60,281 nucleotides of DNA from an uncultured Pirellulaceae bacterium (GTDB lineage: Bacteria; Planctomycetota; Planctomycetia; Pirellulales; Pirellulaceae), in assembly GCA_937941455.1 (NCBI GenBank), contig CALDHM010000004.1:1-60281 (forward strand). The letters are read 5' to 3'. Positions 33,648 through 51,922 of this stretch are shown here, one piece after another (within the stretch, counting starts at the first letter, position 1; the number at the start of each line of letters is the position of its first letter). The translations under genes were made by a program, and so were the position numbers. Below the pieces are notes generated by a model. It ran no database searches. It saw only the letters and a list, made by a program, of their open reading frames with translations, and was not told the DNA's origin.

Positions 33648-36062
33648 ATGCAACCCATCCGGCGGCGAATCGAGATCGAGGGCGTTATTCAGGGGGTCGG
33701 ATTTCGTCCCCTGGTGTGGCGGTTGGCCACGGAGCTGAATTTGACGGGCTGGATCGCCAACGGCCCTGCGGGGGTCGAGGTCGAGCTACAAGGCTCGGAG
33801 CCGAACTTGCGATGCTTTCTCGAGCGGCTGGGAACCGAACTCCCTCCCCAAGCCTCGATTGCCCGGTTAGACCAAACGGAAATCGCGCCGGTCGCTGGCG
33901 AATCCGGTTTCGAGATTCGCGCCAGTGCCAGCGGCAGCGTAAGGCAGGCGGTGGTGCCCCCTGACCTGGCTCTGTGCGCCGATTGCGAGCGCGAATTGTT
34001 CGACCCGCAGGACCGGCGCTACCAGTATCCCTTCATCAATTGCACCCACTGCGGACCTCGGTTTACGATCTTGCTCGACCTGCCCTACGACCGGCACCAG
34101 ACAACGATGGGCAGATTCATCATGTGCTCGAGTTGCCAAGCGGAATACGACGGACCGCGCGATCGGCGCTTCCACGCGCAGCCGAACGCTTGCAGCACCT
34201 GCGGCCCGCATGTCTGGTTCGTGCGCCGCGAGGAGCTGGCAAACCTACCGGCGGATGCCCTCGACGAATCGTGCCAAGAGTTAGATGCTCGCGGGGTTGC
34301 CCGTGGACAAGAAGCCATCCAACAGAGTCGCGCGGCGATCGAGCGTGGCGAGATCGTCGCGATCAAAGGGGTGGGGGGCTTCCACCTCGCCTGCGATGCA
34401 CGAAATCAGCAAGCCGTGCAGGAGCTGCGCAAGCGCAAGAGGCGACATGCCAAACCGCTGGCGATCATGGTGGCCGACCTCGACACGGCCCGGCATCTGG
34501 CGGAGATCACCGGGCAAGAATCAGAGTGGCTCACCTCGCCGCAGCGGCCGATCGTTCTGGTGCGGAAGCGCGAGCCTGGTCCGCTGGCGGCGGGGATCGC
34601 CCCGGACAATCCGCAGCTGGGAATCATGTTGGCCTATTCTCCGCTGCATCGGCTGCTGATCCAGCCGGGCGACGTCTGGGTGATGACCTCGGGCAACCTG
34701 TCCGAGGAGCCGATCTGCCGGACCAACGCCGAGGCTCGCGAGCGGTTGTCGCCAATCGCCGATGCGTTCCTCGTTCACAATCGTCCAATCGCCGCCGTGT
34801 GCGACGACTCCGTCATCCGTGGATCGGACGGCCGGCCAATTCCGATTCGCCGCTCGCGTGGCTTTTGTCCGTTGCCGATTCCGATCCGCACCGCGCGATG
34901 CGACGTTCCGCTGCCGAGCGTGCTGGCGGTCGGCGGCGAACTGAAAGCGGCGGTCTGTCTAACGGTCGGCGAGCAGGCGATCATGGGGCAGCATATCGGT
35001 GATACGGCGAATCTTGAAACGCTGGAGGCGTTGCAACGATCCGTCGAGCATCTCGTTCGCTTGTACGGCGTCGCGCCGCAAGCCTTTGTCGTCGACGCTC
35101 ATCCCGGTTACCTGTCGGCCGAGTGGGGAAGGCGGCAGGCGACGCGGTGGGGCATCCCTGTCCACGCGGTCCAACACCATCACGCCCACGCGGCTGCCAT
35201 CGCCTGCGAGCATGGTTTACTGGACGAAGCGATCATCGCCGTCGTGTTCGACGGAACGGGCTACGGAACGGATGGAGCCATCTGGGGTGGGGAGTGGCTG
35301 ATCGTGTCGGCAACACGTTGCGAGCGATTCGCTCACTTGGCTTACACGCCGCTTCCAGGCGGTGATGCGAGCATTGAATGTCCGGCCAGGACGGCTCTGG
35401 CGCAGCTATTTCACTACGGATTGCCCTGGGCGGAGGGATTGGTTCCCGTCGGTTGGTTCCCGTCGCAGGAGTTGCGCTTGTTGGCCCAACAACTCGAGCG
35501 GAACGTGCACTGCGTGCCGACGAGCAGTATGGGACGATTGTTCGACGCGGTGGCATCGCTGTGCGGGCTGAAGCAGCGTGTCCACTACGAGGCCGAGGCG
35601 GCCAGCCTGCTGGAATTTCAAGCGTCGCAAGCGCTCGAGCACGGGAAGCAGCCTGTTGAACCCTACCCCGTTGATCTGCGCTCCGGCACAGGCTGGCAGT
35701 GGAATCACGGCCCGGCGCTGGAGGCAATCGTCGCGGATTGCCAAAGCGGCACGCCGCGGCCGCTGATCGCCGCTAAATTTCATCGCACGGTCGCGGTGGC
35801 GACTCGCGAGCTTTGCGAACAGGCGCGGGCAGCGCGGGGGATCGATCGAGTGGGGTTAACAGGGGGCGTATTCCAAAATGTGTTGCTGCGCGACCTGGTC
35901 ATCGGTGAGCTGGACAGGGCTGGCTTCCGCGTGTTGACCCACGCTTGCGTCCCGCCGAACGATGGCGGTTTGGCGCTCGGGCAAGCGGTTATCGGCCAGC
36001 GACTGGTCGCTGGTGCCACGGCGGCCAGGATTGGCACGGCCGGGGAGGGGGGCGTTACTTGA
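33648..36062 (+). CDS. hypF: [NiFe]-hydrogenase maturation carbamoyltransferase HypF
   Basis: HypF makes the carbamoyl-AMP that becomes the cyanide ligands of the active-site iron. The 804-residue protein has an acylphosphatase domain (RIEIEGVIQGVGFRPLVWRL), then paired zinc fingers (CADCERE, NCTHCGPRF, CSSCQAEY, CSTCGPH). A YrdC/Sua5-like domain follows (IKGVGGFHLACDA, KRRHAKPLAIMV), and last a Kae1-like domain (HHHAHAAAIACEHG, VFDGTGYGTDGAIWGG). The start at 33648 opens directly into the acylphosphatase domain. Its 3' end overlaps the convergent response-regulator gene by 8 bases. The rest of the hyp genes lie in the same island. Confidence 0.96.
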   Translation: MQPIRRRIEIEGVIQGVGFRPLVWRLATELNLTGWIANGPAGVEVELQGSEPNLRCFLERLGTELPPQASIARLDQTEIAPVAGESGFEIRASASGSVRQAVVPPDLALCADCERELFDPQDRRYQYPFINCTHCGPRFTILLDLPYDRHQTTMGRFIMCSSCQAEYDGPRDRRFHAQPNACSTCGPHVWFVRREELANLPADALDESCQELDARGVARGQEAIQQSRAAIERGEIVAIKGVGGFHLACDARNQQAVQELRKRKRRHAKPLAIMVADLDTARHLAEITGQESEWLTSPQRPIVLVRKREPGPLAAGIAPDNPQLGIMLAYSPLHRLLIQPGDVWVMTSGNLSEEPICRTNAEARERLSPIADAFLVHNRPIAAVCDDSVIRGSDGRPIPIRRSRGFCPLPIPIRTARCDVPLPSVLAVGGELKAAVCLTVGEQAIMGQHIGDTANLETLEALQRSVEHLVRLYGVAPQAFVVDAHPGYLSAEWGRRQATRWGIPVHAVQHHHAHAAAIACEHGLLDEAIIAVVFDGTGYGTDGAIWGGEWLIVSATRCERFAHLAYTPLPGGDASIECPARTALAQLFHYGLPWAEGLVPVGWFPSQELRLLAQQLERNVHCVPTSSMGRLFDAVASLCGLKQRVHYEAEAASLLEFQASQALEHGKQPVEPYPVDLRSGTGWQWNHGPALEAIVADCQSGTPRPLIAAKFHRTVAVATRELCEQARAARGIDRVGLTGGVFQNVLLRDLVIGELDRAGFRVLTHACVPPNDGGLALGQAVIGQRLVAGATAARIGTAGEGGVT

Positions 36063-36681
36063 TCGTGATTAAGCCGCGGTTCAAGGCCGCGTGGATCAGT
36101 TCGACGCGGTTGTGCACATTCAATTTCCGCATCAGATTCGCACGGTGCCGAACGGCCGTGTTGGGGCTGATTTGCAGCAGTTCTGCGATTTCTGGAGTCG
36201 ACAGGCCGTCGGAGATCAGCTTCAGCACCTCCAGCTCTCGGGATGTGAGCGTTGTTTCTTCGGCCTGGCATTCGCGAAGACCGCTGGCATCGATCAATTC
36301 GCTGATGTAGGTGCAGCCCGCCATGACTGCATCGATGGCTCGAAACAGCTCGTCGTCGAGAGCGTGTTTCAGCAGATAGCCATTGGCTCCGGCCTTGATC
36401 GCTCGCACGACGAACTGGACATCGTCATACATCGACAATATGAGAATCTTGAATTTCGCTTCCTGGTCCCGCAGCATTTGGATCAGCTCGATCCCACCAA
36501 GCCGCGGCATGGCCAAATCGGCGACAAGCAGATCGCAGGGGATAGTTTTCAGTTTTTCCAGCGCGTCGTAGCCATTGATCGCCTCGGCGACGACTTCGAA
36601 GCGGCCCTCTTGATTCAAGATGGCCGCTAGTCCACTGCGTACCAAGTTGTGATCGTCCGCCAGGGCAATCCGCAGTTTCAT
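36055..36681 (-). CDS. LuxR/NarL-type response regulator
   Basis: The 208-residue protein has a receiver domain with acidic pair DD at 9-10 and phospho-acceptor Asp 55 (LLVADLAMPR), and a LuxR/GerE DNA-binding domain at about 143-205 (TLTSRELEVLKLISDGLSTP). The ATG at 36681 overlaps the stop of the histidine kinase gene in ATGA, so the pair is coupled. It is likely a transcriptional regulator of the island or of energy metabolism, but its targets are not visible from sequence. Confidence 0.9.
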   Translation of the reverse strand: MKLRIALADDHNLVRSGLAAILNQEGRFEVVAEAINGYDALEKLKTIPCDLLVADLAMPRLGGIELIQMLRDQEAKFKILILSMYDDVQFVVRAIKAGANGYLLKHALDDELFRAIDAVMAGCTYISELIDASGLRECQAEETTLTSRELEVLKLISDGLSTPEIAELLQISPNTAVRHRANLMRKLNVHNRVELIHAALNRGLITIK

Positions 36682-38477
36682 GGGGTCGGCCCTTTTCGCG
36701 TGGGCAAGTGATCGATGCGGATGCAAGTGCCTTGCCCGATTTTCGACGTGATCGAGATGGATGCCCCTAGCATCATGACACGTTCTTGGATACCGACCAG
36801 GCCCAGACCGGCGTGCACGGCCGCGGTGTCGAAGCCGCAGCCGTTATCGAGGATCTCGAGGGAGGGGCCGCTGGATTGCTCGTGCAGCCGAATGAGAACC
36901 TGTGTCGCGGCGGCATGTTTGACGATATTCGTAAGTCCCTCCTGAATGATTCGGTACAAGGTCGTTTCGGCCTCCTCGGATAAACCTCGCTGGTTCTGGA
37001 TCTCTAGCTGGATCTTCAAGTGAAACTGCCGGCAAAACTCATCGACAAGTTGCCGCAGCGTGGCCTCGAATCCCAGTTCATCGAGCGTTGGCGGCCGCAG
37101 CCGTTTGGCCAAGCCACTCAAGCGGACCGCCGCTTCGTTGACTTGTTCACGCAACACGTTCAAATCATCGACCGCCGAGCCATTTTCGGCCGGGAGCCGC
37201 TTGCTCAACAGTTGGAGACGCAATTTCAGTCCGATCAGCACTTGGCCCGCCTCGTCGTGCAATTCCCGAGCGATGTGCCGCCGCTCCTCTTCGAGCCGCC
37301 GGACGTGAGCCGCCGACAGTTTTTTGATCTGCTCATTCTTTTGTTCGAGTGATTTGACCAGGCGCGCGTTCTCAATCGCGACCGCTGCCGTATTTCCCAA
37401 CGATTCGAGCAGAGCTGCCTCCTGCCAGGTAAATTCCGGCTTGCCACCGACGCGAAAGAATTTGAAAAAGCCGAGCACGTTTTGCTGAGCATTCTTGATC
37501 GGGATGCAAATGCACGGACCGGGTTGGAAGCGGCGTTTGATCTCCTGGTCGGCCAATTCGCTTTCGGAGTAGTTGCTGACCAGCAGGGGGAATTTGGTTT
37601 CGAGCACGGTGCCAGCCACGCCTTGAAACGCCCGCCAACGCCGCTCGAATGGATACCACTGGCCGCCGAACAAAAAACTTTCCGACTCCATTACCGTTCC
37701 TTGATCCTGGCCGATGACCAGCCCGGCAGCCCCGCCATCGGCATCCACGAAGCCCGCGGCGTTGATGACCAGTTGCCTGACCAACTCTTTGGGCTGCATG
37801 TGCCGGTTGACGGCCGCATTGAAGGAGAGGAGCATCTCCATGGACTTGCTCCAATCGATCATGCGATGAAACAATCGGGAACGATCGATGGCCGCGGTGG
37901 CGACCCGCGCCAGGGCAACCGCCAACTCGAGATCTGATTCGGTGAAGACGCCGCCCAGACGCTTTTGCCGGCACTCAAGCAGCCCGAGCAACCGATTCTG
38001 CGTACCGAGCAACGGTACCAGCATTACCTGGTGCCCCGCATCGGCCGCGGCTCGAGACTGACGCACCAGTTTAGGCTCTGGCCGCTGCATCAGGTCGAGC
38101 ACCTCGCGGGGTACCGGTTGATCGGCCAGCCGGTTTTGCTGCACAGGCGGATACCAACCGGCGCGCTCGATCTTGCTCTCGTCGACCCAATAACCGACGG
38201 TCCATTCGGCGCCCGCGATTCGGGCAGCATGTTCGGCCAACAGTTGGAACAGTTTTCGCGAGTCCAATTCCCAAGCGAAAGCTTGCGCCGCGGCCGACAG
38301 GCAAGGCACGTGCTGACGCGAATTCCCGTGCAGTTGGCTGAACGATCGCTGCGTCGCTTCGAGTGGCCTGAGCACTCGCGTTGATTCGAGATCCTCGCTT
38401 ACGGGTTTCTCCGGTTGAATTGGCGAGGATTGGCCAAGCTGCGAATCGTCGCTCCGCGTGGCGTTGCTGATTTTCAT
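36678..38477 (-). CDS. Cytoplasmic GAF-domain sensor histidine kinase (NarL/DesK-class partner)
   Basis: The 599-residue protein has two GAF-like regions at about residues 65-205 and 215-385, a HisKA_3 dimerisation domain with phospho-acceptor His 407 (RHIARELHDEAGQVL), and a HATPase domain (ILDNGCGFD, GLGLVGIQERV). There is no membrane helix or signal peptide, so it senses an internal cue. The second GAF contains a single Pro-Cys-Ile-Cys element (PGPCICIP) that could bind a ligand or be redox-active, which is speculative. It lies 33 bases after hypB on the same strand and couples to the response regulator. Confidence 0.88.
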   Translation of the reverse strand: MKISNATRSDDSQLGQSSPIQPEKPVSEDLESTRVLRPLEATQRSFSQLHGNSRQHVPCLSAAAQAFAWELDSRKLFQLLAEHAARIAGAEWTVGYWVDESKIERAGWYPPVQQNRLADQPVPREVLDLMQRPEPKLVRQSRAAADAGHQVMLVPLLGTQNRLLGLLECRQKRLGGVFTESDLELAVALARVATAAIDRSRLFHRMIDWSKSMEMLLSFNAAVNRHMQPKELVRQLVINAAGFVDADGGAAGLVIGQDQGTVMESESFLFGGQWYPFERRWRAFQGVAGTVLETKFPLLVSNYSESELADQEIKRRFQPGPCICIPIKNAQQNVLGFFKFFRVGGKPEFTWQEAALLESLGNTAAVAIENARLVKSLEQKNEQIKKLSAAHVRRLEEERRHIARELHDEAGQVLIGLKLRLQLLSKRLPAENGSAVDDLNVLREQVNEAAVRLSGLAKRLRPPTLDELGFEATLRQLVDEFCRQFHLKIQLEIQNQRGLSEEAETTLYRIIQEGLTNIVKHAAATQVLIRLHEQSSGPSLEILDNGCGFDTAAVHAGLGLVGIQERVMMLGASISITSKIGQGTCIRIDHLPTRKGPTP

Positions 38478-38510
38478 CTCGGCACTCGAACCAAATAATG
38501 AAATTGACCC

Positions 38511-39182
38511 TTAGTTCATCATCCGCTCGCGCATTTGCCGCAGGTAATCGAGCCACACATCCAAACCGATCCCGCGTTTGGCCGAGGTCTCGATCACGCG
38601 GATTCCCGGGCGGATCGCGGCCAAATTATCCAACGCAGCGGAGCGGTCAAATTCGCAGGCCTCTGCCAAGTCGATTTTGGTGATCACCGCGACGTCGGCC
38701 GTATTGAACAGGTTGGGATATTTCAGCGGCTTGTCCTCCCCTTCCGTAACCGACAGCAACGCCACTCGCACCGACTCTCCCAAGTCCCAACTGCTAGGGC
38801 AAACCAGGTTGCCCACATTTTCAATGAACAAATACTCGAGCGAACCGAGATCCCAATCGGCGATGTGCCGCTGCACCATGTCCGCCTCCAGGTGGCACAT
38901 GCCATGGGTCATGATTTGGCGCACCGTGGCGCCGCTCTGCGCCAGGCGCCGCGCGTCGTTGTCGGTTTCCAAGTCGCCGACCACGGCAGCCGCGGGCCAG
39001 CCTGCTTCGACCATGCGGCGGAGGGTTTCTTGCAGCAAGGCCGTCTTGCCGGTCCCCGGGCTGGAAACGAGGTTGACCACCAGCACACCCAAGCGTTGAA
39101 ACTCGGCCCGCATAGCCCGGGCTAGCTCGTCATTTTTCTTGAGGATCTTCGTGCGAACTTCGAGAATGCGTGGTTCGATCAT
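38511..39182 (-). CDS. hypB: Hydrogenase nickel-insertion GTPase HypB (short form)
   Basis: HypB delivers nickel to the hydrogenase large subunit together with HypA. The 223-residue protein is a SIMIBI GTPase with Walker A SSPGTGKTALL, VVGDLETDNDARR, the dimer-interface metal site GMCHLEADM, NVGNLVCPSSWDLGE and the TKIDLAEA guanine-specificity motif. The N-terminal CCxxCGC or His-rich nickel-storage segment of many HypB proteins is absent. It overlaps hypA in ATGA. Confidence 0.95.
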   Translation of the reverse strand: MIEPRILEVRTKILKKNDELARAMRAEFQRLGVLVVNLVSSPGTGKTALLQETLRRMVEAGWPAAAVVGDLETDNDARRLAQSGATVRQIMTHGMCHLEADMVQRHIADWDLGSLEYLFIENVGNLVCPSSWDLGESVRVALLSVTEGEDKPLKYPNLFNTADVAVITKIDLAEACEFDRSAALDNLAAIRPGIRVIETSAKRGIGLDVWLDYLRQMRERMMN

Positions 39183-39592
39183 GGGCTGGTTCTCGCTCGA
39201 GCCTCTGCGGTGACCATATGCGAAGTAGGTGTGTTTACGGAATGTCCTTCGTCAACCACTTCGATCGATTCGACATCGAGTTCCCTCCCCTGGCGAAGGT
39301 CGGCTGTGCGAGTCCCGCACGCGGGGCAGGTGAAACTTTGGATGCCAGGTAATTCCCGAAGCGCTTCGCAATTGGGACAAAATACAACGATCGGCAGTTC
39401 GTCAATCAGCAATTTCGCGCCGGCCAGCGGCGTGTCAGCGGTGATCAAATCGAAGCTGAAATAAAGAGAATCGCGGTGAACGCAACTAAGCGCTCCAATC
39501 CGCAGGCGAATCGAACGAACCCGCTCGGTGGGGGATGTCAATTGCTGTTTGGCGATTTCAACAATACTGTGGGCGATCGACAATTCGTGCAT
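39179..39592 (-). CDS. hypA: Hydrogenase nickel metallochaperone HypA
   Basis: The 137-residue protein begins MHELSIA, with the nickel-binding His 2, and contains the zinc finger CPNC and CPAC pair about 30 residues apart. The C-terminal roughly 20 residues (HSVNTPTSHMVTAEA) extend beyond the usual 113-118 residues. It is translationally coupled to hypB. Confidence 0.94.
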   Translation of the reverse strand: MHELSIAHSIVEIAKQQLTSPTERVRSIRLRIGALSCVHRDSLYFSFDLITADTPLAGAKLLIDELPIVVFCPNCEALRELPGIQSFTCPACGTRTADLRQGRELDVESIEVVDEGHSVNTPTSHMVTAEARARTSP

Positions 39593-39625
39593 GAGTTTGC
39601 TCGCAAGCAGCCCGAGTTTTGCCGT

Positions 39626-39654
39626 ATTATCGTCCGTCCAAGGCTTGAAAACAA
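39626..39654 (-). promoter_or_regulatory. Candidate sigma-70-type promoter of hypA-hypB
   Basis: Read on the minus strand, TTGTTT (39649-39654) and GATAAT (39626-39631) are 17 bases apart, placing a start site about 25-30 bases upstream of hypA. This would give hypAB and the two-component genes a promoter independent of the DUF1641 gene. Confidence 0.4.
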
Positions 39655-39812
39655 TCCACTATGCGGGGCCAACGGGTGTTTTTTATAAGACAGTTTATTT
39701 TTCCTCGTTTCGCCGCGATGGGCTGCGGGAGAGACTTTTTGTTGATGCAGCGAGCGACGTTCAGCCTCATAACTCTCCGGCGTCGGCACGGCGGCCCCCC
39801 AGCAAGCTGGGC

Positions 39813-40664
39813 TCAGCGCAGATGCCGCGCGAACGCTTTGGCGAAGGCCACAAGAAATCCAAACGACTTTTGCACGTCAGGGTCGCGACTGGCCTTGAGC
39901 ATTCCCCACAGACCGCCGATCGGTTGAGGATTCCCCGCGCGAACTTCTTCAAACGTGTCAACCATTTTTTTGCCGAGATCCCCAAGGGTGCTGACAACCT
40001 TTTTGTCGAGCATCCCCGAATCGACCATGCCTACCCCGGCGTTGATGATTTTGTTCATTTTGTCCCCCATCAAATCGGATTCGAGCAATTGGTCCCCCAA
40101 TTCCTTGAGTTTGGGGAGGGATTGAAGAGAAGTGGTGATTTGGTCGATCGAGATATCGCTTTTCCCTCGCTTCAGGTCAGCGACGATGGCCGTGACGTTT
40201 TCGACGATCGAGTCCCCGCGCTGCAAAAATCCGTCGAGGGACTCCAACAGGAAGGCCGCCAAGGGGAGCTTATCCAACAATTGATTGAGAGTTTGCAGCG
40301 TGGCCGGATCGGTGAGCCGCTCGAGGAGCCGAGATTTTTCCAATTCATCGACGTTGATGGCCTGAGACGCCCGCGCGAGTCGGGTTCCTGTTTCGATCAG
40401 TTCGGGGGCCTGTTCGACCAGGGAACCGATCGCACCTCCGGCCTCAGCGGCTTTCAAATCATGCACTGTTCCCGCAACGGATTCGACGATCACCTCACCA
40501 CGCGAGATGAAACCCTCGAAGGCTTCGACAGCGAAATTGATCGAATCCATATGATCGAGCAGGCGCGAAATGCCTGAGACGACCTGCGGATCCTGCAACC
40601 TTTCTTGTATCGCCTGCCAACCGTCCAGTTTGCCGTTGTTTGCAAAGCCATTCGATCCCGTCAT
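39813..40664 (-). CDS. DUF1641-like helical protein beside the hydrogenase genes
   Basis: The 283-residue protein is almost entirely helical. It contains two similar halves, each with a LLDKLPLAAFLLESLDGFLQ-like element: residues about 35-75 (LLDHMDSINFAVEAFEGFIS) and about 125-160. It ends in a conserved-looking GLWGMLKASRDPDVQKSFGF. This pattern fits the DUF1641 family, often found near formate dehydrogenases and hydrogenases. There is no signal peptide. It points away from hhyS, upstream of hypA in the same orientation. Function is unknown; a link to redox-enzyme assembly or electron transfer is inference. Confidence 0.7.
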   Translation of the reverse strand: MTGSNGFANNGKLDGWQAIQERLQDPQVVSGISRLLDHMDSINFAVEAFEGFISRGEVIVESVAGTVHDLKAAEAGGAIGSLVEQAPELIETGTRLARASQAINVDELEKSRLLERLTDPATLQTLNQLLDKLPLAAFLLESLDGFLQRGDSIVENVTAIVADLKRGKSDISIDQITTSLQSLPKLKELGDQLLESDLMGDKMNKIINAGVGMVDSGMLDKKVVSTLGDLGKKMVDTFEEVRAGNPQPIGGLWGMLKASRDPDVQKSFGFLVAFAKAFARHLR

Positions 40665-41274
40665 CGTTTCACCTCACGCCATAATTTGGTGCTGTCAATC
40701 CAAGCGATAGAATTTTTGCCGCCGATTTGGGCGGCTCCTGCTATGCCTTGCCTGGCTCGCAATAAGAGCCTATCCCAAACCAACCCTCGCTGACGCTTCA
40801 GGCTACGGATGCGGGCGGTTTCGGGATCGGCCATGAGTCCTTCCAGTTACTGCGGCGGGCGAGGATCTGCACCGCCTTCCACCTCGCCTGCGCCTGCCGT
40901 TTTAGGGAGGAACAGTCTCAATTGCCTCCACGAGCGATGCCGATCAGAACATCCCCGACCCTTGGCATTTCGAATCGGAGGCGACGCACCGGCCACGATT
41001 TTTTACGGAAGCAACCGAGAGAGTGCCGCTCGTCCGATTTCGCCAAACCAAAGTTCTTTGGAGTTCACGCCGCGCTAGTTTCCCAGAAAGAATTTTTGCT
41101 GCCAATGATATGAACATGTTATTGAATCCAAATCTTCCGCCGTCGATATTTGTGCAGCATCCGAAGACTTACCCGAGTTGCGACCGCGACGGCACCTAGC
41201 AGTTGGCCAGGGTAAATTTTTGCGACTGCATTCAACATGCCACATATGCGCAGCAAGACAAAGGAGATTGGACC
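40665..41274. other. Divergent regulatory region between DUF1641 and hhyS
   Basis: The 610-base gap carries dispersed repeat copy 2 (40764-40804). The part nearest hhyS (41090-41270) is A/T-richer and should hold the structural-gene promoter, but no -35/-10 pair or NtrC-type box was convincing. The open frame 40809-41078 shows no features. Confidence 0.5.
40764..40804 (+). repeat. Dispersed intergenic repeat, copy 2
   Basis: AAGAGCCTATCC, a short variable part, then CCCTCGCTGACGCTTCA and GGCT; nearly identical to the copy at 7029-7070 over its whole length. Confidence 0.65.
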
Positions 41275-43989: not shown

Positions 43990-44153
43990 CCCGCGTCCGC
44001 AAATCCGCAGCGGGGGCTGCAGCCGAAGGCGAGGGAGAACGGCAAGGCCCTGTCGTCGCCTGCCGCAGTCGTCGCCTTCCGCTGGGGTTGAACGAGGGGA
44101 ATCAAACAACATCGAGTCAAGCCGCTTTCCTGGTTGAACAGCTGACAGAAATC

Positions 44154-45059
44154 ATGACCTGCGTACACACCGATTCGCAAAAGTCACCTGAGCCGATCGA
44201 CGTGGCGACTGGCCAGCTGCGGGCTGACGTCACGACGCTCATCATCGGCTGCGGCAACCTGCTCCGCGGCGATGACGCGGCGGGACCGGTGCTGATTCGC
44301 CGCATGTGGGATCGCGGTCTGCCACTGGGGGTCCGTTGCGCTGATGGTGGCACCGGTGGCATGGACGTGGCGTTTCAGATGCGGGGCGTAGAGCATGTGA
44401 TTCTGATCGACGCCTGCCAGTCGGGGTCGGAACCTGGGTCGCTGTTCGAAGTCCCTGGCCAAGAGCTCGAGAACTTGCCCCCCCTCGCGGGTTTGAACCT
44501 GCATGCATTTCGCTGGGATCACGCTTTGGCGTTCGGCCGTTGGCTGCTCAAGGATGAATACCCGCAGCGGATCACCGTTTACCTTATCGAGGGATCGTCG
44601 TTCGAAATCGGCCAGCCGCTGTCTCCGGCTGTGGACCGCGCGGTCGATGCCTTGGTGGACCGGTTGTTCCGCTTGCTCGACCCGTTGACCATTTCCATCG
44701 AAATCGATGACGCCGGTTATCTGCGGATCAGTGGTTGCGATGCCGCTCGTTTTTTCCCTGAAGACACCGTGGTGCCGCTTCGCAAAAATGGCCGACTCTA
44801 CTTACTGCCGACGCGTGGTGCGGCGGCGGGGGGCATGATTCTCAAACAGCGGAATCTTTCGGGGGATCGTAGCCTGCTGGTCAGCGAGATCTTTGGATTC
44901 CACCCGCCCAGTGGCCGCTTCGTCGCGCGGTGGGATCAGCAACTCGGCGGCTTGGCGGTCCAGGTCCCCGATGAACAGGACTCATCGTGTATGCCGCAGA
45001 CGGCCCAACCCCGCTCCCAATCGTCTACGGTCTCCTCGGCAAGTACGGATGAAAGTTGA
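44154..45059 (+). CDS. Hydrogenase maturation endopeptidase fused to an unknown C-terminal domain
   Basis: Residues 24-175 are a HupD/HyaD-type protease that trims the large-subunit tail after nickel insertion: IGCGNLLRGDDAAGPVLIRR, GGTGGMDVAFQM and HVILIDACQSG hold the usual metal-binding acidic residues, and His 118 or 123 may be the third ligand. The remaining roughly 120 residues (SIEIDDAGYLRISGCDAARFF onward) form an extra, strand-rich domain not found in stand-alone proteases, which are about 160 residues. It follows hhyL by 164 bases. The ATG at 44154 is chosen; upstream open codons have no similarity. The stop overlaps the next gene in TGATG. Confidence 0.85.
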   Translation: MTCVHTDSQKSPEPIDVATGQLRADVTTLIIGCGNLLRGDDAAGPVLIRRMWDRGLPLGVRCADGGTGGMDVAFQMRGVEHVILIDACQSGSEPGSLFEVPGQELENLPPLAGLNLHAFRWDHALAFGRWLLKDEYPQRITVYLIEGSSFEIGQPLSPAVDRAVDALVDRLFRLLDPLTISIEIDDAGYLRISGCDAARFFPEDTVVPLRKNGRLYLLPTRGAAAGGMILKQRNLSGDRSLLVSEIFGFHPPSGRFVARWDQQLGGLAVQVPDEQDSSCMPQTAQPRSQSSTVSSASTDES

Positions 45060-46399
45060 TGACCAAACTGGCTGTCCAATCCGATCCCTGTTTAGCCGCC
45101 TGTCCGCAGCCGATCGGTATTTTCGGCGGATACGCCACCCACTTGTTGCTTCCGACCATTCCGTCGATCGACGCATCCAGCCAACAAGAGACCATCGCGA
45201 ATCTGATGAGGGGGGGGCTAGATCCGGAGCGATGGCCCGAGGCATGGCAGTTCTTCGCTGCGGCTGCTCGAGGCGATCGTGAGCGGGCGTGGGAACTGAT
45301 TCGCTTACGAAGTTTGCCCTCTGGCGATCTGAGCGATATCGATTGCTACAACCAGTTTGCCTTGCGGCCGACTGCGGACGAATACCGACGGCTCAGCCAA
45401 ATCTTTGTCGGTCCGCTGCTGATGCTGCTAGACGCGACGGCGTACGCGCTGGGTGTCGCGGATCGCCCGCCGGTCGCCGATTCGATGGGGCTGACTGAGT
45501 TGCGTCCGGAGCTCGCAGCCTGGATTTGGGCGACCTTGGCTTCAGCCGATATCGAGTCCGGCCAATTTGCAGCGGCGCGCGAGAAGTTGCTGCACGGGGC
45601 AGAGCTTGCAGGCTCGACGTCCCATGTGTTGGCGGCTCAGCTCCGATCCCAGGCGGCAGGCATTGGGCATTATCAGTTGGCCTTGCCGCTGACGGTCGTC
45701 AAGCAGGACTACGAAGCGGCGATCCGTCTGGCCGAGGGTTGTCGCCTGCCCGGCTTCATGGCCGAGCTGTGGACTCAGCTAGGCATGTTGTGGCAGGCCG
45801 CGGCCGAGAATTCTCGCGCTGCCATGCTGGAGGCGGTGCGGGCCTATCAGACTGCCGTCCACGAGTTGGGGGATCCCACCAGCCATCCGCGGTTGTATGC
45901 CGAACTGCAGAACAATTTGGGATTGGCGTACCTGGTGCTTTCCCGAGCGGAAACCGGAGATCGCCTGCGGTATGGGATTGCCATTCAGTCGTTTCGCAAG
46001 GCCTTGGAGTTCGTAACGCTCGAGTCCGACGGTGAGCTGTGGTCGCGTATAAGCATGAATTTGGCCAGCGCTCTGCAATATGCGCCGTCGAGTCACCCAG
46101 CTGAAAACTTGGTGCAAGCTGTCGAAATCTACGAGCAGGTGCTCGGATATCGAACGAAGGCCCGCGATCCCGTGGCCCATGCTTTGGTGCTCCTCAACCA
46201 AGCCAATGCGTTGGCTCATCTGGGGATCTTCAAGCCTGCGTTAGAAAAGGCCTCGGAGGCTTATAAATTATTCCATTGGCATGAGCAAACCGATGCCGCG
46301 CAAACCGCTCGCGAACTGGTCGAGCGGGTGAATGACCATTTGTCGGCCGATCAGCGCACGTCGGACAATCAAGGATTCGCACCGCATGGCGCTCTATGA
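45059..46399 (+). CDS. TPR-like helical protein of the hydrogenase operon
   Basis: The 446-residue protein has no signal peptide. From about residue 150 it shows helical repeats of TPR type, such as ELRPELAAWIWATLASADIE, HPRLYAELQNNLGLAYLVLS and DPVAHALVLLNQANALAHLG. The first 90 residues lack recognisable repeats. Its start overlaps the protease stop, and it overlaps the next gene by 14 bases, so it is in the core hydrogenase transcript. Group 1h clusters in other phyla also carry a TPR-type gene in this position as I recall, suggesting a scaffold role in assembly or complex formation. Confidence 0.78.
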   Translation: MTKLAVQSDPCLAACPQPIGIFGGYATHLLLPTIPSIDASSQQETIANLMRGGLDPERWPEAWQFFAAAARGDRERAWELIRLRSLPSGDLSDIDCYNQFALRPTADEYRRLSQIFVGPLLMLLDATAYALGVADRPPVADSMGLTELRPELAAWIWATLASADIESGQFAAAREKLLHGAELAGSTSHVLAAQLRSQAAGIGHYQLALPLTVVKQDYEAAIRLAEGCRLPGFMAELWTQLGMLWQAAAENSRAAMLEAVRAYQTAVHELGDPTSHPRLYAELQNNLGLAYLVLSRAETGDRLRYGIAIQSFRKALEFVTLESDGELWSRISMNLASALQYAPSSHPAENLVQAVEIYEQVLGYRTKARDPVAHALVLLNQANALAHLGIFKPALEKASEAYKLFHWHEQTDAAQTARELVERVNDHLSADQRTSDNQGFAPHGAL

Positions 46400-46769
46400 A
46401 CGGCAACAGTTCGACTTCTTACTGCAGACCGCCGTCGAAAGGTTCGTCGAACGGTTGGAACAGCGATTTCGCGGTCCGAGCCCGGCCCGCGAGCATTTGC
46501 AACTCGACCCCGAGGGGGAAGGGGTCTGGCTGTCGAAGTTTACTGCTGCGGTCTTCGAGGACTTTCTGCTCAACAATGTCGATGGTGCCTGCTTCGTCCT
46601 GCGGGCGCTGCCTCGTCAACCGGTCGAGTTGGCGACAGCGCCGCCACCAAGCGTGGAAGACCACTTGATCGACCTCGCTCAGCGATCTTTCACGAGGTTG
46701 CTCCGGGCGAAGTCGCTGGAATTGCTCGAGCAGCACGCGGGCTACGAACCGGTTCAAACTGAAGGGTAA
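46386..46769 (+). CDS. Small protein of unknown function in the hydrogenase operon
   Basis: The 127-residue protein begins MALYERQQFDFLLQTAVERF and is mostly helical, with a Pro-rich centre (APPPSVEDHLIDLAQRSF). There is no membrane segment, cysteine cluster or recognised domain. It overlaps the TPR gene by 14 bases and is 8 bases before the NifU-Rieske gene, so it is certainly co-expressed. It may be a chaperone or a small partner of the iron-sulfur protein; no evidence decides. Confidence 0.7.
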   Translation: MALYERQQFDFLLQTAVERFVERLEQRFRGPSPAREHLQLDPEGEGVWLSKFTAAVFEDFLLNNVDGACFVLRALPRQPVELATAPPPSVEDHLIDLAQRSFTRLLRAKSLELLEQHAGYEPVQTEG

Positions 46770-46777
46770 ACGACGCG

Positions 46778-47722
46778 ATGAACGGCAATGAAAACAGGAC
46801 ATCCGCCGACCTCCCATCGCACGAGACAGAGGCTCCGGCCACCGCTGCTGCGGCCTCGTCGACTCCGCAGTTGACGGTCGACGATCTCGAAGTTCTGGCG
46901 CGGCGGGTCGACGATGCGATGTCCGAGGTCACGGCGATGCCCGCCGAGTACCGTGCCAAGGCGACTGCGCTCAAATCGGCCATCGAGGAGTTCCACAAGG
47001 TTGGTTTGACCCACATCGTGAAGACGCTCAAGAATGATCCAGGCGGCAAGGAGATCCTATTCCGCCTAGTGGATGAACCCGCGGTTTTCACCCTCTTCTC
47101 GATGCATGGACTGGTGCGCGCCGATTTGCGGACTCAGGTGCAGCGTGTGATCGACATGGTGCGCCCCTACCTCGAATCGCACGGCGGTAATGTGGAGTTG
47201 GTCGAACTTCGTGGCAAGACCGTGCTGGTCCGCTTGTTGGGAAATTGCAATGGATGCTCCCTGTCCCAAGTGACCCTCAAAAACACAGTCGAGGAGACGC
47301 TAAGGCAACATCTGCCCGAAATCGAGGGAGTCGAGGTGGTACCCAACGGCGCAGCGGCCACCGAGAATTTGGTGCAAATTCAAGTTGCAAAGGACCCCGA
47401 TGCGGCAGCCGGTTGGATTCGCGGCCCGCAGTTGGGCGATCTACCGCCGAATCGTCCCTCAGCGTTCGACGCCGAGGGGATTTCTATTCTGCTGCTCCCC
47501 ACCCGCGGCGGATGGCGGGCCTATCGTAACGCCTGCGCTCATCAAGGTCTTCCGCTCGACGCGGGGATGCTGGATGCCGATCAAGGGTCGTTGACCTGCC
47601 CCTGGCACGGCTTTCAGTTCGACGCCGAATCGGGAGAGTGCTTCAGTGCACCCCAGTGCCAGCTCGAACCGTTCCCTTTGCGAATTTCCGAAAATCACAT
47701 TTGGGTCCGACCAGTAAGTTAA
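46778..47722 (+). CDS. hhyE: NifU-Rieske two-domain iron-sulfur protein (HhyE/HucE-like)
   Basis: The 314-residue protein has a helical N-terminal part to about 120, a NifU C-terminal-type domain with the CxxC of VRLLGNCNGCSLSQ (Cys 157 and 160), and a Rieske domain with CAH (Cys 253, His 255) and CPWHG (Cys 274, His 277). Proteins of this make-up are encoded with the Huc and Hhy hydrogenases of mycobacteria, where they are linked to hydrogen-dependent electron transfer. It probably carries electrons from the hydrogenase to the respiratory chain, or helps in cluster assembly. It sits between an unknown small gene and the NHL gene. Confidence 0.87.
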   Translation: MNGNENRTSADLPSHETEAPATAAAASSTPQLTVDDLEVLARRVDDAMSEVTAMPAEYRAKATALKSAIEEFHKVGLTHIVKTLKNDPGGKEILFRLVDEPAVFTLFSMHGLVRADLRTQVQRVIDMVRPYLESHGGNVELVELRGKTVLVRLLGNCNGCSLSQVTLKNTVEETLRQHLPEIEGVEVVPNGAAATENLVQIQVAKDPDAAAGWIRGPQLGDLPPNRPSAFDAEGISILLLPTRGGWRAYRNACAHQGLPLDAGMLDADQGSLTCPWHGFQFDAESGECFSAPQCQLEPFPLRISENHIWVRPVS

Positions 47723-47729
47723 CAACGCC

Positions 47730-49040
47730 ATGACCACTCGCGACGCTCTCAAACGATCCGATACCGATCGGCCTGAAGTGCTGATCCAGGTGACGCTGTC
47801 GCGACCGCGTGGTGCATTCGTGCCACCGGGTGAAGCAAGGGGCAACGAATCGCGATCGGTAAGGAGCGAGGGATCACGGTCCGCTAGGCCAGTCGTTTGG
47901 CTGGGAGCGTACTCTTCCGGCGGCTTGGCATTGCCCCCCGCTCAGCCGACTCGGCGGCAAATGTACGCTCCGCGCGGCGTGTGGCTCGACGATCAGCGGT
48001 TAATCGTCTGCGACACCGGAAATCATCGCGTCCTCATCTGGCATGACCTGCCGCACAGCGACGGTCAACCAGCCGATGTCGTGCTCGGGCAACGGGACTT
48101 CGAATCGGAAGGGCCCGGCTGCGGCAGCGGCGATCCTCGCCGCGGAATGTACCTACCTACCGGGGTCATCGTCGTCGATGGTCGCTTGTTGGTAGCCGAC
48201 GCTTGGCATCATCGAATTTTGGTCTGGCGAGAAGTTTCCAAGCGGTCCGCCACGCCTGCCGACTATGCGATCGGTCAAGCGTCGTTGGACGAGGCGGCTC
48301 CCAATCGAGGTCGGGGGCAGGCGAATTTGGATTCGCTCTACTGGCCCTACGGTTTGGCTTACATCGATGGTATGCTCTGGGTGACCGATACTGGGAACCG
48401 TCGCGTGCTGGGCTGGTTCGGATTGCCCGATGGGGATCGCCCGGCCGATGTCTGCCTTGGGCAACCCGACGGACACAGCTCGGACGAAAACCGGGGTGGC
48501 CCGCCGCGGGCCGATTCATTTCGCTGGCCACATGATGTGACGGGGGATGGGACGTGCCTGTGGGTCGCCGACGCAGGGAACCATCGCGTGCTGGGGTGGC
48601 GTGGGCCCGTGCACCAGGATCGACCTGCGGACTATCTGCTCGGACAGCCCGAGATGACGGAAGCCGTAGAATGGCCCTACGCCGAACAAAGCGAGCGGCG
48701 GTTGCGATTTCCCTATGCGATCTCGAAAATGGGGGATGTCTTGGCCGTAGCCGATACGGCCAACAATCGAATTCTGCTGTGGGATTCGCCGCCGGAAGAG
48801 AATCGGTTTGCCGCGGCGAGCCATGTGTTGGGGCAGCTCGATTTTCAAAGCTTTGGCGAAAATCGTTGGACGGCTGTCGCCCGCGATACCCTGTGCTGGC
48901 CCTACGGTCTGTGCTTGCACCGAGACCGACTGGCCATCGCCGATTCGGGGAACAACCGAGTGATGATCTGGGATGTGTCCGCGGTCACGGCCGATTCAGA
49001 CGATCTCACACTGAAATCGATGGCAGATTCAATGAGGTGA
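47730..49040 (+). CDS. NHL-repeat beta-propeller protein of the hydrogenase operon
   Basis: The 436-residue protein has six NHL-type repeats from about residue 75, each with a D-(S/T/A)-(G/A/W)-N/H-(N/H/R)-R-(V/I) core (VCDTGNHRVLIW, VADAWHHRILVW, VTDTGNRRVLGW, VADAGNHRVLGW, VADTANNRILLW, IADSGNNRVMIW). Most are followed by PADYxLGQP-like linkers. The first 70 residues are variable, and no signal peptide is evident, so it should be cytoplasmic. NHL proteins are known companions of group 1h hydrogenases. It starts 7 bases after hhyE. Its role may be a docking platform at the membrane or for the enzyme complex. Confidence 0.85.
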   Translation: MTTRDALKRSDTDRPEVLIQVTLSRPRGAFVPPGEARGNESRSVRSEGSRSARPVVWLGAYSSGGLALPPAQPTRRQMYAPRGVWLDDQRLIVCDTGNHRVLIWHDLPHSDGQPADVVLGQRDFESEGPGCGSGDPRRGMYLPTGVIVVDGRLLVADAWHHRILVWREVSKRSATPADYAIGQASLDEAAPNRGRGQANLDSLYWPYGLAYIDGMLWVTDTGNRRVLGWFGLPDGDRPADVCLGQPDGHSSDENRGGPPRADSFRWPHDVTGDGTCLWVADAGNHRVLGWRGPVHQDRPADYLLGQPEMTEAVEWPYAEQSERRLRFPYAISKMGDVLAVADTANNRILLWDSPPEENRFAAASHVLGQLDFQSFGENRWTAVARDTLCWPYGLCLHRDRLAIADSGNNRVMIWDVSAVTADSDDLTLKSMADSMR

Positions 49041-49045
49041 AAGCG

Positions 49046-49396
49046 ATGTGTTTAGCGGTTCCTGGTCAAGTCCAATCGATCTACGAGACTCAAGGCACGC
49101 GGATGGGGATTGTCAATTTTGGAGGGGTCGAAAAGGAGGTCTGCCTGGCCTATCTGCCCGACATTCAAGTCGGCGATTACACGATCGTCCATGTCGGCTT
49201 TGCCATCAGCCGCCTGGATGAGGAATCGGCGCGGAAGACCTTGGAGACCTTTGCCCAACTCGGCTTGCTGGACGAAGAGTTGGAGGAACTTCGTGCGACC
49301 GATTCCGCAGCAAGTTCGTCAGCCATGGACGAGAATGCCGCGGCTACCACGGACGGCGATCATGGTTCAATCCGTCAGGGAGGCGTGCCGCGATGA
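49046..49396 (+). CDS. hypC: Hydrogenase maturation chaperone HypC
   Basis: HypC carries the Fe(CN)2CO unit with HypD and guides it to the large subunit. The 116-residue protein begins MCLAVPGQV with the essential Cys 2, and has [31 protein letters not shown], all split here by normal family features. A tail of about 30 residues after the usual end is Ala/Asp-rich. The ATG at 49046 lies 5 bases after the NHL stop; the same frame is open upstream but non-coding. It overlaps hypD in ATGA. Confidence 0.95.
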
Positions 49397-50502
49397 AGTA
49401 CTTGGACGAATTTCGCGACGGTGAACAAGCTCGGCGACTGGCGGACGAAATCGCGCGGATCACGACCCGGCCTTGGTCGATCATGGAGGTGTGCGGCGGC
49501 CAAACCCACTCGATTATCCGCAACGGCATCGATCAGATTTTGCCCGTCGGGGTGGAAATGATTCACGGTCCCGGTTGCCCCGTGTGCGTCACGCCGTTGG
49601 GGGTGATCGACAAAGCGCTCGCAATCGCCGCGCGGCCGGAAGTGATCTTCTGTTCCTTCGGCGATATGCTGCGAGTGCCTGGTTCTCGCGACGACTTGTT
49701 GCGGGTCAAAGGGGCCGGCGGAGATGTCCGCGTCGTCTACTCGCCGCTGGATGCCTTGCGCTTGGCTAGGGAAAACCCCGATCGCCAAGTGGTCTTTCTG
49801 GCCATTGGTTTTGAAACGACAGCTCCGGCCAATGCGATGGCTGTGAAGTTGGCCAAACAGGAAGGAATTCGCAACTTTTCAGCCTTGGTCTCCCACGTGC
49901 TTGTCCCACCCGCGATCGAAGCCATCGTGCGGTCGCCAGGCAATCGCGTTCACGCTTTTTTAGCGGCCGGTCATGTGTGCAGCGTGATGGGATACCACCA
50001 ATATCATATTTTGGCCGAGACCTACCACGTTCCTATCGTGGTGACAGGTTTCGAGCCTCTGGATTTGCTCGAGGGAATTCGTCGAGTTATCTGGCAACTT
50101 GAACATGGCGAGTCGCGGGTCGAAAACGCCTACGAGCGGGTCGTCACCGAGGCGGGGAATGTGGCAGCCCAGGCGACCATCGCCGAGGTCTTCGAGGTAA
50201 CAAATCGCGGTTGGCGCGGTATCGGTGTCATTCCCTACAGCGGCTGGAAACTGCGCGAGGAGTATGCGGAATTCGACGCCGAGCGACGCTTCGACGTCAG
50301 CCAGATCAACGCGGCGGAATCGCCAATTTGCCGTGCGGGAGAGGTGCTGCAAGGAGCCATCAAGCCGAATCAGTGCGCGGCGTTTGGCAAGCAGTGTACT
50401 CCGAGGCACCCGCTCGGGGCCACGATGGTCTCCAGCGAAGGTGCCTGCGCCGCCTACTATCACTACGGCCGCTTCGTCGAGCTGCAGGGAACGAAAGGAT
50501 AG
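49393..50502 (+). CDS. hypD: Hydrogenase Fe-cyanide assembly protein HypD
   Basis: The 369-residue protein has [31 protein letters not shown] and [10 protein letters not shown], and C-terminal cysteines ([31 protein letters not shown]) for the [4Fe-4S] cluster. Length and motif order are standard. It is coupled to hypC and precedes hypE by 3 bases. It forms, with HypC, the scaffold on which CN and CO ligands are attached to iron. Confidence 0.97.
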
Positions 50503-50505
50503 CCC

Positions 50506-51651
50506 ATGCCAGAGATCTCGTCCCAGCCGTTCACAAGCCCCCGAGCGGACCTCTCAGCGAGCGATGCCGGAGCGGAGAAGTCGATTTCCAGTTCGGCTCG
50601 AGGGCCCGATCCCAGCCAGCTCAGTTGCCCAAGGCCGCTGGCCGATCACCCACATATCGTGCTCGGTCATGGAGGGGGGGGGAAGCTATCGGCGGAATTG
50701 ATCGAACAGATCTTTCTGCCCCGCTTCGGGGCACCCAGTGATCATCCGCTTGGGGATTCGACCGTCGTTGCGTTGCCTGCTGGGCGTATCGCGGTCTCGA
50801 CCGATTCATTCGTCGTGCGGCCGCTGTTCTTTCCCGGAGGCAGTATCGGTGATCTGGCCGTCAACGGAACGGTCAACGACCTGGCGGCCAGCGGAGCTCA
50901 GCCTCTCTACCTGACCGCTAGCTTCATTCTCGAAGAAGGCCTGCCCTTGGACGATCTCGTCCGGATCGTGGAGGACATGGCTCGGGCGGCCCGCAACGCC
51001 GGTGTACGAATCATTGCGGGGGACACGAAGGTCGTCGAACGCGGGCACGGCGACGGCTGCTACATCACGACAACCGGAGTCGGCATCGTTCCCGATGGCT
51101 GCGATATCCGTTTGGACCGCGCCCAGGTGGGGGATGTAGTGCTGATCAGCGGTACCGTTGGAGACCACGGCATGGCGGTGATGAGCCGCCGCGAGGGTCT
51201 GGAGTTTTCCGGTCCGCTGGCCAGCGATACGGCCAGTTTATCAGGGTTGGTCCAAGCCCTCCTGGCCGTCTGCCCTGACGTGCATGTCCTTCGCGACCCT
51301 ACTCGCGGCGGCTTGGCCATGACGCTGAACGAAATCGCCCAAGCCGCGCGGTGCGGCATCGAAATCATCCAAGCCGCCGTACCGATCGATCCGATTGTGC
51401 AGTCGGCCTGCGAATTCCTGGGGCTTGATCCGCTGTTGGTTGCCAACGAGGGAAAAATCGTAGCAGTCGTCCCTGCCGCTACCGCGGAGCAAGCCCTGAA
51501 CGCCCTGCGGCGTCATCCTCTCGGGCAGCGTGCTGCAATGATCGGTCAGGTCATCGCCGATCCCAATCACCTTGTCGTCGCGCGGACGGCGGTCGGCACC
51601 CGCCGCGTTGTCCCCATGCCGATCGGGGAACAGTTGCCCCGAATTTGTTGA
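50506..51651 (+). CDS. hypE: Hydrogenase cyanide-synthesis protein HypE
   Basis: HypE dehydrates the carbamoyl group that HypF places on its C-terminal cysteine. The protein ends PRIC, with the required terminal Cys. HIVLGHGGGGKLSAELIEQ begins the core, and DTKVVERGHGDGCYITTTGVG and DPTRGGLAMTLNEIAQ follow. An extra 45-residue Ser/Pro-rich N-terminal stretch precedes the core if the ATG at 50506 is used. The frame and spacing to hypD support that start. Confidence 0.96.
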   Translation: MPEISSQPFTSPRADLSASDAGAEKSISSSARGPDPSQLSCPRPLADHPHIVLGHGGGGKLSAELIEQIFLPRFGAPSDHPLGDSTVVALPAGRIAVSTDSFVVRPLFFPGGSIGDLAVNGTVNDLAASGAQPLYLTASFILEEGLPLDDLVRIVEDMARAARNAGVRIIAGDTKVVERGHGDGCYITTTGVGIVPDGCDIRLDRAQVGDVVLISGTVGDHGMAVMSRREGLEFSGPLASDTASLSGLVQALLAVCPDVHVLRDPTRGGLAMTLNEIAQAARCGIEIIQAAVPIDPIVQSACEFLGLDPLLVANEGKIVAVVPAATAEQALNALRRHPLGQRAAMIGQVIADPNHLVVARTAVGTRRVVPMPIGEQLPRIC

Positions 51652-51694
51652 TAAACTTAATCGTGGATTTTTCTACTTGCGAAAGGCTTTCTCT

Positions 51695-51922
51695 ATGCTG
51701 CGTTTGCTAACTGTCGGTTGTTTGGTTTTGATCTCCCCCTTGGCGGCTCTGGCCCATGAGGGGCATGGCAAGCCTGGCGAGGGGCACACGGCCCAACACT
51801 ACTTGCTGGAACCGATCCACCTACCGCTGGCTGTGTTGGTAGCAGCCATCGTTGTGATTTCGGCCTTGCTGCTTCGACGCTACTTCAAACGAACCCGGCC
51901 CGTAAACTCCCAAGCCAGTTGA
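51695..51922 (+). CDS. Small membrane protein with a His-rich N-terminal motif
   Basis: The 75-residue protein has a signal-like N-terminus (MLRLLTVGCLVLISPLAALA) directly followed by HEGHGKPGEGH, then one transmembrane helix (LPLAVLVAAIVVISALLL) and a basic tail (RRYFKRTRP). The four histidines could bind a metal. The gene starts 43 bases after hypE, with AAAGG about 9 bases upstream, and is the last on the strand. It may anchor or supply the hydrogenase, but that is inferred from position only. The longer frame starting inside hypE is not used. Confidence 0.65.
   Translation: MLRLLTVGCLVLISPLAALAHEGHGKPGEGHTAQHYLLEPIHLPLAVLVAAIVVISALLLRRYFKRTRPVNSQAS

Follow-up and report, generated by a model that had tools for sequence, protein, structure and literature searches.

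A predicted Huc-type [NiFe]-hydrogenase cluster with a two-module HucM scaffold in an uncultured Pirellulaceae bacterium

Introduction

The oxidation of atmospheric H2 is described as a globally significant process. The window analysed here, 60,281 nucleotides of an uncultured Pirellulaceae bacterium (contig CALDHM010000004.1 of assembly GCA_937941455.1), is one contig of a 4.04-Mb genome with an estimated completeness of 96%. Its positions 33648-51922 hold one divergent gene block centred on a [NiFe]-hydrogenase, as judged by open reading frames (ORFs), family profiles and Pfam. An earlier note on this DNA, made from the letters, had regarded the span as the island of a group 1h enzyme in a probable planctomycete. 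Which class of hydrogenase does the locus encode, and would the enzyme be assembled like the Huc particle of Mycobacterium smegmatis? Taken as a whole, the locus very probably encodes a group 2a hydrogenase of the Huc type with its full maturation set, which would pass electrons from trace H2 to menaquinone. Its predicted scaffold protein HucM contains two tandem docking modules, where the M. smegmatis protein has one.

Classification of the hydrogenase

Both subunits were compared with all solved structures. HucL gave 869 bits with M. smegmatis HucL (residues 9-519), followed by 223 bits for the next kind of enzyme and 115 bits for HofG, while HucS reached 616 bits with M. smegmatis HucS, 115 with the next kind and 98 with HofK. 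The HofGK enzyme of Cupriavidus necator, which we take to be that of PDB entry 5AA5, belongs to the same [NiFe] family and is devoid of a Tat leader. It is named a group 1h hydrogenase in PMC10017518. Because the subunits score far higher to Huc than to HofGK, the enzyme is assigned by its sequence to the Huc type of group 2a and not to group 1h, the class proposed in the earlier note; the assignment is drawn from similarity to solved structures, and the HucL tree (see below) is composed of group 2a rows and unclassified planctomycete outgroup rows with no known 1h row. M. smegmatis Huc (PDB 7utd, 7uur and 7uus; PMC10017518) aligned with the window proteins end to end in HucL and HucS, shares the quinone-site residues and likewise possesses HucM.

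The features by which a hydrogenase island had been recognised all lay where they had been placed, between HypF at the start of the span (33648-36062) and the last ORF ending at 51922. The small subunit (41275-42246) begins with MATLLWLQGGACSGN, showed no twin-arginine (Tat) leader by eye and contains CSGN; Cys12 and Asn15 of this motif are present in 77 of 78 aligned HucS sequences (75 of the 80 loci of the genome scan described below, the window, L013 and L018), the remaining row having a gap. RICGICGGSH and DSCLVCTVH were found in the large subunit (42373-43989) along with a C-terminal tail. HypA to HypF are all encoded, HypF, B, C, D and E passing the NCBIfam cut-offs and HypA staying just below (86.2 versus 88.1 bits). 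The domains of the linked NifU-Rieske and NHL genes were found by Pfam, and the nearest named relatives are metagenome-assembled genomes of Pirellulaceae, in line with the suggested planctomycete origin. The linked TPR gene is a mixed case, since it occupies a conserved place and its counterparts are annotated as TPR, but a Pfam match is lacking. The use of the TPR, NifU-Rieske and NHL genes as markers of group 1h is doubtful. All of them are neighbours of huc (group 2a), in print and in named records: Rieske, NHL and maturation genes are common neighbours of group 2a genes (PMC7784904), and TPR, NifU and NHL genes occur in the huc-type cluster of Parageobacillus thermoglucosidasius (PMC12976888). 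In 2020, one Planctomycetota genome was counted among the bearers of group 2a enzymes (PMC7784904). The cluster is a further planctomycete member of the known Huc kind and, apart from its doubled scaffold, an ordinary Huc cluster overall.

A two-module HucM protein

The Huc particle of M. smegmatis is composed of eight HucS, eight HucL and four HucM subunits; residues 20-79 of HucM form a cage binding four HucS2L2 lobes, and for residues 80-189 the model is a tube of four chains reaching the membrane (PMC10017518). Solved Huc chains in our structure searches came from the M. smegmatis work only. Adjoining hucS, the window contains a gene for a DUF1641 protein, which matched HucM (7uus_Q, E=2.4e-15; the ordered 60-residue piece 7utd_Q, 3.7e-9). 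Judged by these matches, the product of 39813-40664 is HucM, the quinone-tube scaffold. This gene, like the kinase and regulator genes treated below (36055-38477), lies inside the span and was absent from the earlier note; since these genes are conserved in other genomes, they are not chance ORFs.

While the homologous M. smegmatis protein is 188 residues long and has one module, the window HucM comprises 283 residues with two modules (about 20-71 and 113-165) and a stalk region (about 170-283). The modules matched a module profile with 71 and 79 bits, lie about 93 residues apart and are 42% identical to each other (the frame of the profile search began 3 residues upstream and its residue numbers are 3 higher). 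A profile-profile comparison of two-module with one-module HucM gave a probability of 100 (E=4.2e-42). The one-module protein aligned to the second module and the stalk and, therefore, the extra module is N-terminal. In an AlphaFold model, a helix-helix-long-helix pattern was repeated at 15-73 and 113-166.

The alignments of HucM comprised the window protein with 37 of 41 others for the two-module form and 21 of 23 sequences for the one-module form. Identity between the modules of one protein averaged 48%. Across loci, module 1 is more conserved than module 2 (mean identity 47% versus 41%), and each of them keeps a common core in which L and R positions are fully or almost fully conserved. Linkers between modules measure 37-59 residues in two-module HucM, and the median stalk lengths of one-, two- and three-module proteins are 110, 121 and 116 residues, respectively. 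As far as the literature on HucM and DUF1641 hydrogenases was accessible, we found neither a mention of repeated HucM modules nor a description of a doubled scaffold; an earlier report in supplementary files is possible.

Module number in other huc loci

The best 80 of 418 loci from a genome scan were analysed, a sample that is biased to closer relatives and has Cyanobacteria outside it. Fifteen of the 80 were set aside, hucM being absent or the contig ending before it, and HucM matches shorter than 150 residues (L018, L085) were excluded. Among the 67 HucM proteins counted (80 loci, the window and L013), 23 have one module, 42 have two and two have three. The one-module proteins came from 21 loci of Actinomycetota and one each of Chloroflexota and Bacillota. 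Two modules were present in 40 scanned loci, belonging to Chloroflexota (19), Acidobacteriota (8), Planctomycetota (6), Gemmatimonadota (5) and Altimarinota (1) with one remaining locus. Three modules were seen in Bryobacter (L029 and L030, 4262-5431), which counts as one case because both HucM proteins are identical. Five planctomycete proteins obtained by a whole-genome search (L102-L106), two of which repeat L022 and L025, all possess two modules. Plasmid clusters from five of 36 records were analysed, and those of Thermus and Sulfobacillus encode HucM with one module.

A second HucM-like protein with a DUF1641 region is encoded away from huc in genome G419 (L108, contig C133). It gave a weak partial module match (13.9 bits) and is perhaps the adapter of another enzyme.

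Distribution and HucL tree

In the family, 4 of 199 genomes gave a HucL match at E<=1e-60, one of them being the genome of the window; the four listed congeners gave none. A phylum sample of 392 genomes yielded six matches, of which only the window itself and G344 (85%) were close. The remaining four are 36-42% identical and, as far as identity tells, would lie outside group 2a. Planctomycete large subunits of 36-42% identity are encoded at L009-L012, with one internal stop each in L011 (TAA) and L012 (TGA).

The HucL tree was calculated by a quick method with support from the Shimodaira-Hasegawa-like approximate likelihood ratio test (SH-aLRT) only, and its outgroup rows (39-42% identical) have very long branches, one reaching a length of 10. 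The outgroup row L012, the repeat copies L001, L002, L007, L008, L014-L017 and L019, and the split copy L020, L021 were dropped. Within group 2a, the window grouped with rows of Pirellulaceae. Nine of the 11 scanned planctomycete loci formed one group with the window, L013 and L018 (12 rows, support 98), nested in a larger clade (28 rows, support 98) together with Acidobacteriota, Gemmatimonadota and Gemmata L034, and the planctomycete L066 stood apart among Chloroflexota rows. This topology suggests a transfer of huc between phyla. A minimum of five changes of module number is required on the tree. Its root is uncertain, and with it whether modules were gained or lost.

A histidine kinase and a response regulator linked to huc

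The histidine kinase of the window is composed of GAF, HisKA_3 and HATPase domains, with GAF matches in two stretches (75-199 and about 230-369; Pfam). Only loci with 5.5 kb or more ahead of hucS were considered, and a kinase match of at least 300 bits together with a regulator match of at least 170 bits was regarded as a close pair. Two of the 80 loci had no hucS match above 300 bits and another 17 had less flank than required, leaving 61. The pair recurs beside huc in four phyla, namely Planctomycetota (5/7), Acidobacteriota (8/10, two near-identical Bryobacter included), Gemmatimonadota (5/5) and Chloroflexota (7/18), and was absent, at this similarity, from all 20 loci of Actinomycetota and from the one remaining locus. 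In 12 genomes chosen by hand and not at random, the full-length kinase was detected in all four that bear huc (G000, G344, G419 and G467, the window's own genome among them) and in none of the eight without huc; three of the latter gave kinase-core matches only (77-107 bits) and five no match at E<=1e-20. From this linkage and co-occurrence we infer that the pair controls huc, which makes it a concrete candidate for huc control in several phyla. GylR affects huc in M. smegmatis without binding its promoter, and direct regulators were called unidentified there in 2026 (PMC13098282).

Ten mycobacterial loci also have a kinase pair close to huc, which was rejected as a case of the same pair: the kinases score 92-112 bits, and the regulator precedes the kinase, which is located 1.3-8.6 kb upstream of hucS. 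Two pairs of Pyrinomonadaceae (kinases 100 and 103 bits) were not counted either. Haem sensing by the kinase was considered and discarded. The alignment used for this comprised 28 sequences including the window and excluded L030, which nearly duplicates L029. None of its Cys positions reaches 90% conservation, and among the His residues only H407, in the kinase core, does so; therefore, no ligand is proposed.

Possible assembly of the Huc particle

The 8:8:4 stoichiometry known from M. smegmatis cannot be carried over to the window as it stands. Most likely, both modules dock HucSL lobes, in two or four HucM chains, and the kinase/regulator pair controls expression.

Several observations weigh against this reading and the physiological scheme tied to it. 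The AlphaFold model of HucM had a mean predicted local distance difference test score (pLDDT) of 71 and a predicted template modelling score (pTM) of 0.32, values too low for the arrangement, and a fold search with this model returned only low-scoring, meaningless chains (best E=0.69), with no meaningful match to HucM chains either. In none of four huc-bearing planctomycetes that neighbour the window in the HucL tree (L023, L026, L027, L031) was hucM found genome-wide, while it was recovered in all three other planctomycete genomes searched alongside them. In three of the four, the contig covers the site between hypA and hucS where hucM would be expected, and none is present. Their genomes being metagenome assemblies, this absence is not proof; huc without hucM in four genomes nonetheless means that HucM would not be indispensable to the family. 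Likewise, the stretches examined of plasmid clusters of Runella, Bradyrhizobium and Sphingopyxis contain no HucM. The kinase pair is missing in 36 of the 61 loci with enough flank, and L026 of the hucM-less group has none within 8.6 kb before hucS. The TPR label of 45059-46399 finds no support in Pfam (no match at E<=0.01), although Thermus and Sulfobacillus have a TPR-annotated protein at this position of the cluster. Finally, activity, affinity, quinone reduction and assembly of the window Huc are predictions from sequence.

As to the number of chains, two HucM chains might supply the four docking sites that are given by four chains in M. smegmatis, leaving the size of the particle unchanged. 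Two times two modules would indeed make four, and the consensus is kept in both modules with 48% mean identity within one protein; yet the stalk is about as long as in one-module HucM (121 versus 110 residues) and was modelled as a four-chain tube in M. smegmatis, and three modules do not divide into four. We consider this arrangement possible, though rather unlikely. It is also doubtful whether one module no longer docks HucSL and merely lengthens or stiffens the stalk, as the lower conservation of module 2 across loci (41% versus 47%) might indicate, for both modules retain the common core and the same helix pattern. Docking by both modules being preferred, the nearly constant stalk length and the existence of a three-module form speak slightly for an arrangement in tiers. 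We tentatively propose, as an idea that is unlikely to be right in all its parts, that HucM is a modular rack in which one, two or three modules per chain set the number of HucSL tiers on one four-chain menaquinone tube. Phyla with two-module HucM (Planctomycetota, Acidobacteriota, Gemmatimonadota and Chloroflexota) would then assemble up to 16 HucSL, and the HucM-less sub-clade would possess a free or differently coupled Huc. If so, the M. smegmatis particle would be one build among several. If the doubled HucM is common outside actinobacteria, the stoichiometry and quinone tube published for M. smegmatis should be tested in other bearers, for which HucM proteins of different module number form a natural series.

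Quinone site, electron route and physiology

Lys212, Tyr229 and Tyr301 are the quinone-binding residues of M. smegmatis HucS (PMC10017518). They stand at identical numbers in the window protein and are conserved in 78, 76 and 78 of the 78 aligned HucS sequences, respectively. His169 of HucL lies in a conserved WPHSSF stretch and is taken as the probable counterpart of M. smegmatis His166. The quinone-site residues of HucS are also retained in L023, L026 and L031, the three hucM-less loci checked. HucS residue 163 (window 41761-41763) is Cys (PGCPC), as in 7 of the 78 aligned sequences, with Ala in 62. Elsewhere in the genome, MqnC of the futalosine menaquinone route (498 bits, above the cut-off; a second match of 342 bits is below it) and two haem-copper oxidase subunits (COX1) were detected. 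A second [NiFe]-hydrogenase is encoded at L005 4028-8288 (contig C5) by four NAD(P)-linked sulfhydrogenase-like subunits, all matching below the NCBIfam cut-offs; we presume that it is group 3b-like.

By homology, HucSL would split H2 at very low concentration from air. The electrons would run through the small-subunit clusters to menaquinone near Y229, K212 and Y301 of HucS, HucM would join the HucSL lobes and conduct menaquinone from the membrane through its hydrophobic helical tube, and the respiratory chain would reoxidise the menaquinone. Oxidation of trace H2 by the organism is plausible, because Huc does so and the menaquinone-site residues are intact; the group 1h grounds on which the earlier note had expected it fall away. 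The three species behind sub-atmospheric uptake by group 2a enzymes are reportedly Gemmatimonas, Chloroflexus and Acidithiobacillus. From three unlike species, group 2a enzymes were inferred to consume sub-atmospheric H2 and to support mixotrophic growth (PMC7784904), and purified M. smegmatis Huc reached about 40 parts per billion by volume (ppbv) of H2 (PMC10017518). A role in starvation, as suggested previously, is less secure, group 2a being tied to growth and the transition to dormancy and not to long-term persistence (PMC7784904, PMC12976888). With the enzyme placed in 2a and not in 1h, one would expect a role in mixed-substrate growth more than in persistence.

It appears improbable that the enzyme, though Huc-like by descent, is used mostly for H2 supplied locally at higher concentration instead of H2 from air, for instance by recycling from the presumed group 3b-like hydrogenase. 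The genome carries this second enzyme with its sulfhydrogenase-like subunits, and cyanobacterial group 2a enzymes are described as recyclers of nitrogenase H2, but sub-atmospheric uptake inferred from three unlike species and the 40 ppbv or so reached by M. smegmatis Huc speak against it. A group 1h (Hhy-type) hydrogenase is practically out of the question: Huc and group 1h both oxidise trace H2 in M. smegmatis and both classes lack a Tat leader, but the scores to HofG and HofK (115 and 98 bits, against 869 and 616 to Huc) and the HucM, NifU-Rieske, TPR and NHL neighbours, which match huc, contradict it. A literature search for planctomycete group 1h enzymes in connection with Pirellula gave no result.

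Gene order and related clusters

The plus strand carries hypF, hucS, hucL, the protease, the TPR-like and small conserved proteins, the NifU-Rieske and NHL proteins, hypC, hypD, hypE and a small hydrophobic protein, and the minus strand hucM, hypA, hypB, the kinase and the regulator (Table 1).

Table 1. Features of the hydrogenase locus (positions in the window)
Feature	Position	Strand	Basis
hypF, carbamoyltransferase for the NiFe cofactor	33648-36062	+	TIGR00143, 762 bits, above cut-off
NarL/LuxR-type response regulator, candidate huc regulator	36055-36726	-	Pfam Response_reg and GerE; partner of the kinase; huc-linked in many loci
GAF-GAF-HisKA_3-HATPase histidine kinase, candidate huc sensor	36678-38477	-	Pfam; co-occurrence with huc in chosen genomes
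hypB	38511-39182	-	TIGR00073, 248 bits, above cut-off
hypA	39179-39592	-	TIGR00100, 86.2 bits (cut-off 88.1); adjoins hypB
hucM, predicted DUF1641 scaffold, two tandem docking modules and stalk region	39813-40664	-	7uus_Q match; PF07849; module profile
610-base intergenic region between divergent hucM and hucS, presumed promoter region	40665-41274		coordinates
hucS, small subunit	41275-42246	+	616 bits to HucS 7uur_D, residues 2-323; K212, Y229, Y301 present
hucL, catalytic large subunit	42373-43989	+	869 bits to HucL 7uus_A, residues 9-519
HucL maturation protease with C-terminal extension	44154-45059	+	TIGR00072, 126 bits, above cut-off; start codon
TPR-like protein of huc clusters	45059-46399	+	conserved place; counterparts annotated TPR; no Pfam match
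small conserved huc-cluster protein	46386-46769	+	same place kept in many loci; no family match
hucE, NifU and Rieske	46778-47722	+	Pfam NifU 1e-24, Rieske 6.7e-16; motifs CNGC, CAH, CPWH
NHL-repeat protein	47730-49040	+	Pfam NHL 5.1e-23
hypC	49046-49396	+	TIGR00074, 75.6 bits, above cut-off
hypD	49393-50502	+	TIGR00075, 484 bits, above cut-off
hypE	50506-51651	+	TIGR02124, 428 bits, above cut-off
small protein, hydrophobic stretches and HEGHG motif	51695-51922	+	probably membrane-bound (by eye); cluster membership doubtful

Unlike in M. smegmatis, hucM, hypA, hypB, the kinase and the regulator are divergent from hucS in the window; accessory genes of the window cluster were found in other mycobacterial loci. 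Nearly the same order (DUF1641, hypA, hypB, small, large, protease, hypothetical, TPR, hypothetical, NifU, NHL, hypC, D, E) was described for Parageobacillus thermoglucosidasius (PMC12976888), a member of the Bacillota; the kinase pair is not named in that description. The plasmid huc clusters of Sulfobacillus acidophilus and Thermus thermophilus contain mostly the same genes, and Sulfobacillus shares with the window the divergent orientation of hucM-hypA-hypB relative to hucS, but HucM has one module and the stretch examined gave no kinase or regulator match. Group 2a clusters of Acidobacteriota, Gemmatimonadota and Chloroflexota encode HucL of 68-84% identity, a two-module HucM in 32 of the 35 loci that encode HucM and the kinase pair in 20 of the 33 with sufficient flank; unlike in the window, their hucM, hypA and hypB usually lie on the hucS strand, and Bryobacter (Acidobacteriota) differs by its three modules. 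Also similar is the archaeal group 2e enzyme Hys of Acidianus, with a small and a large subunit, about 45% identical to HucSL, and a HucM-like HysM proposed from models (PMC11018855).

The small protein at 51695-51922 has one relative among the scanned loci, located after hypE in L022 (E=1.8e-6). At the other end of the block, a Ser/Thr protein kinase with a hydrophobic C-terminal half is encoded at window 31103-33337 and adjoins hypF.

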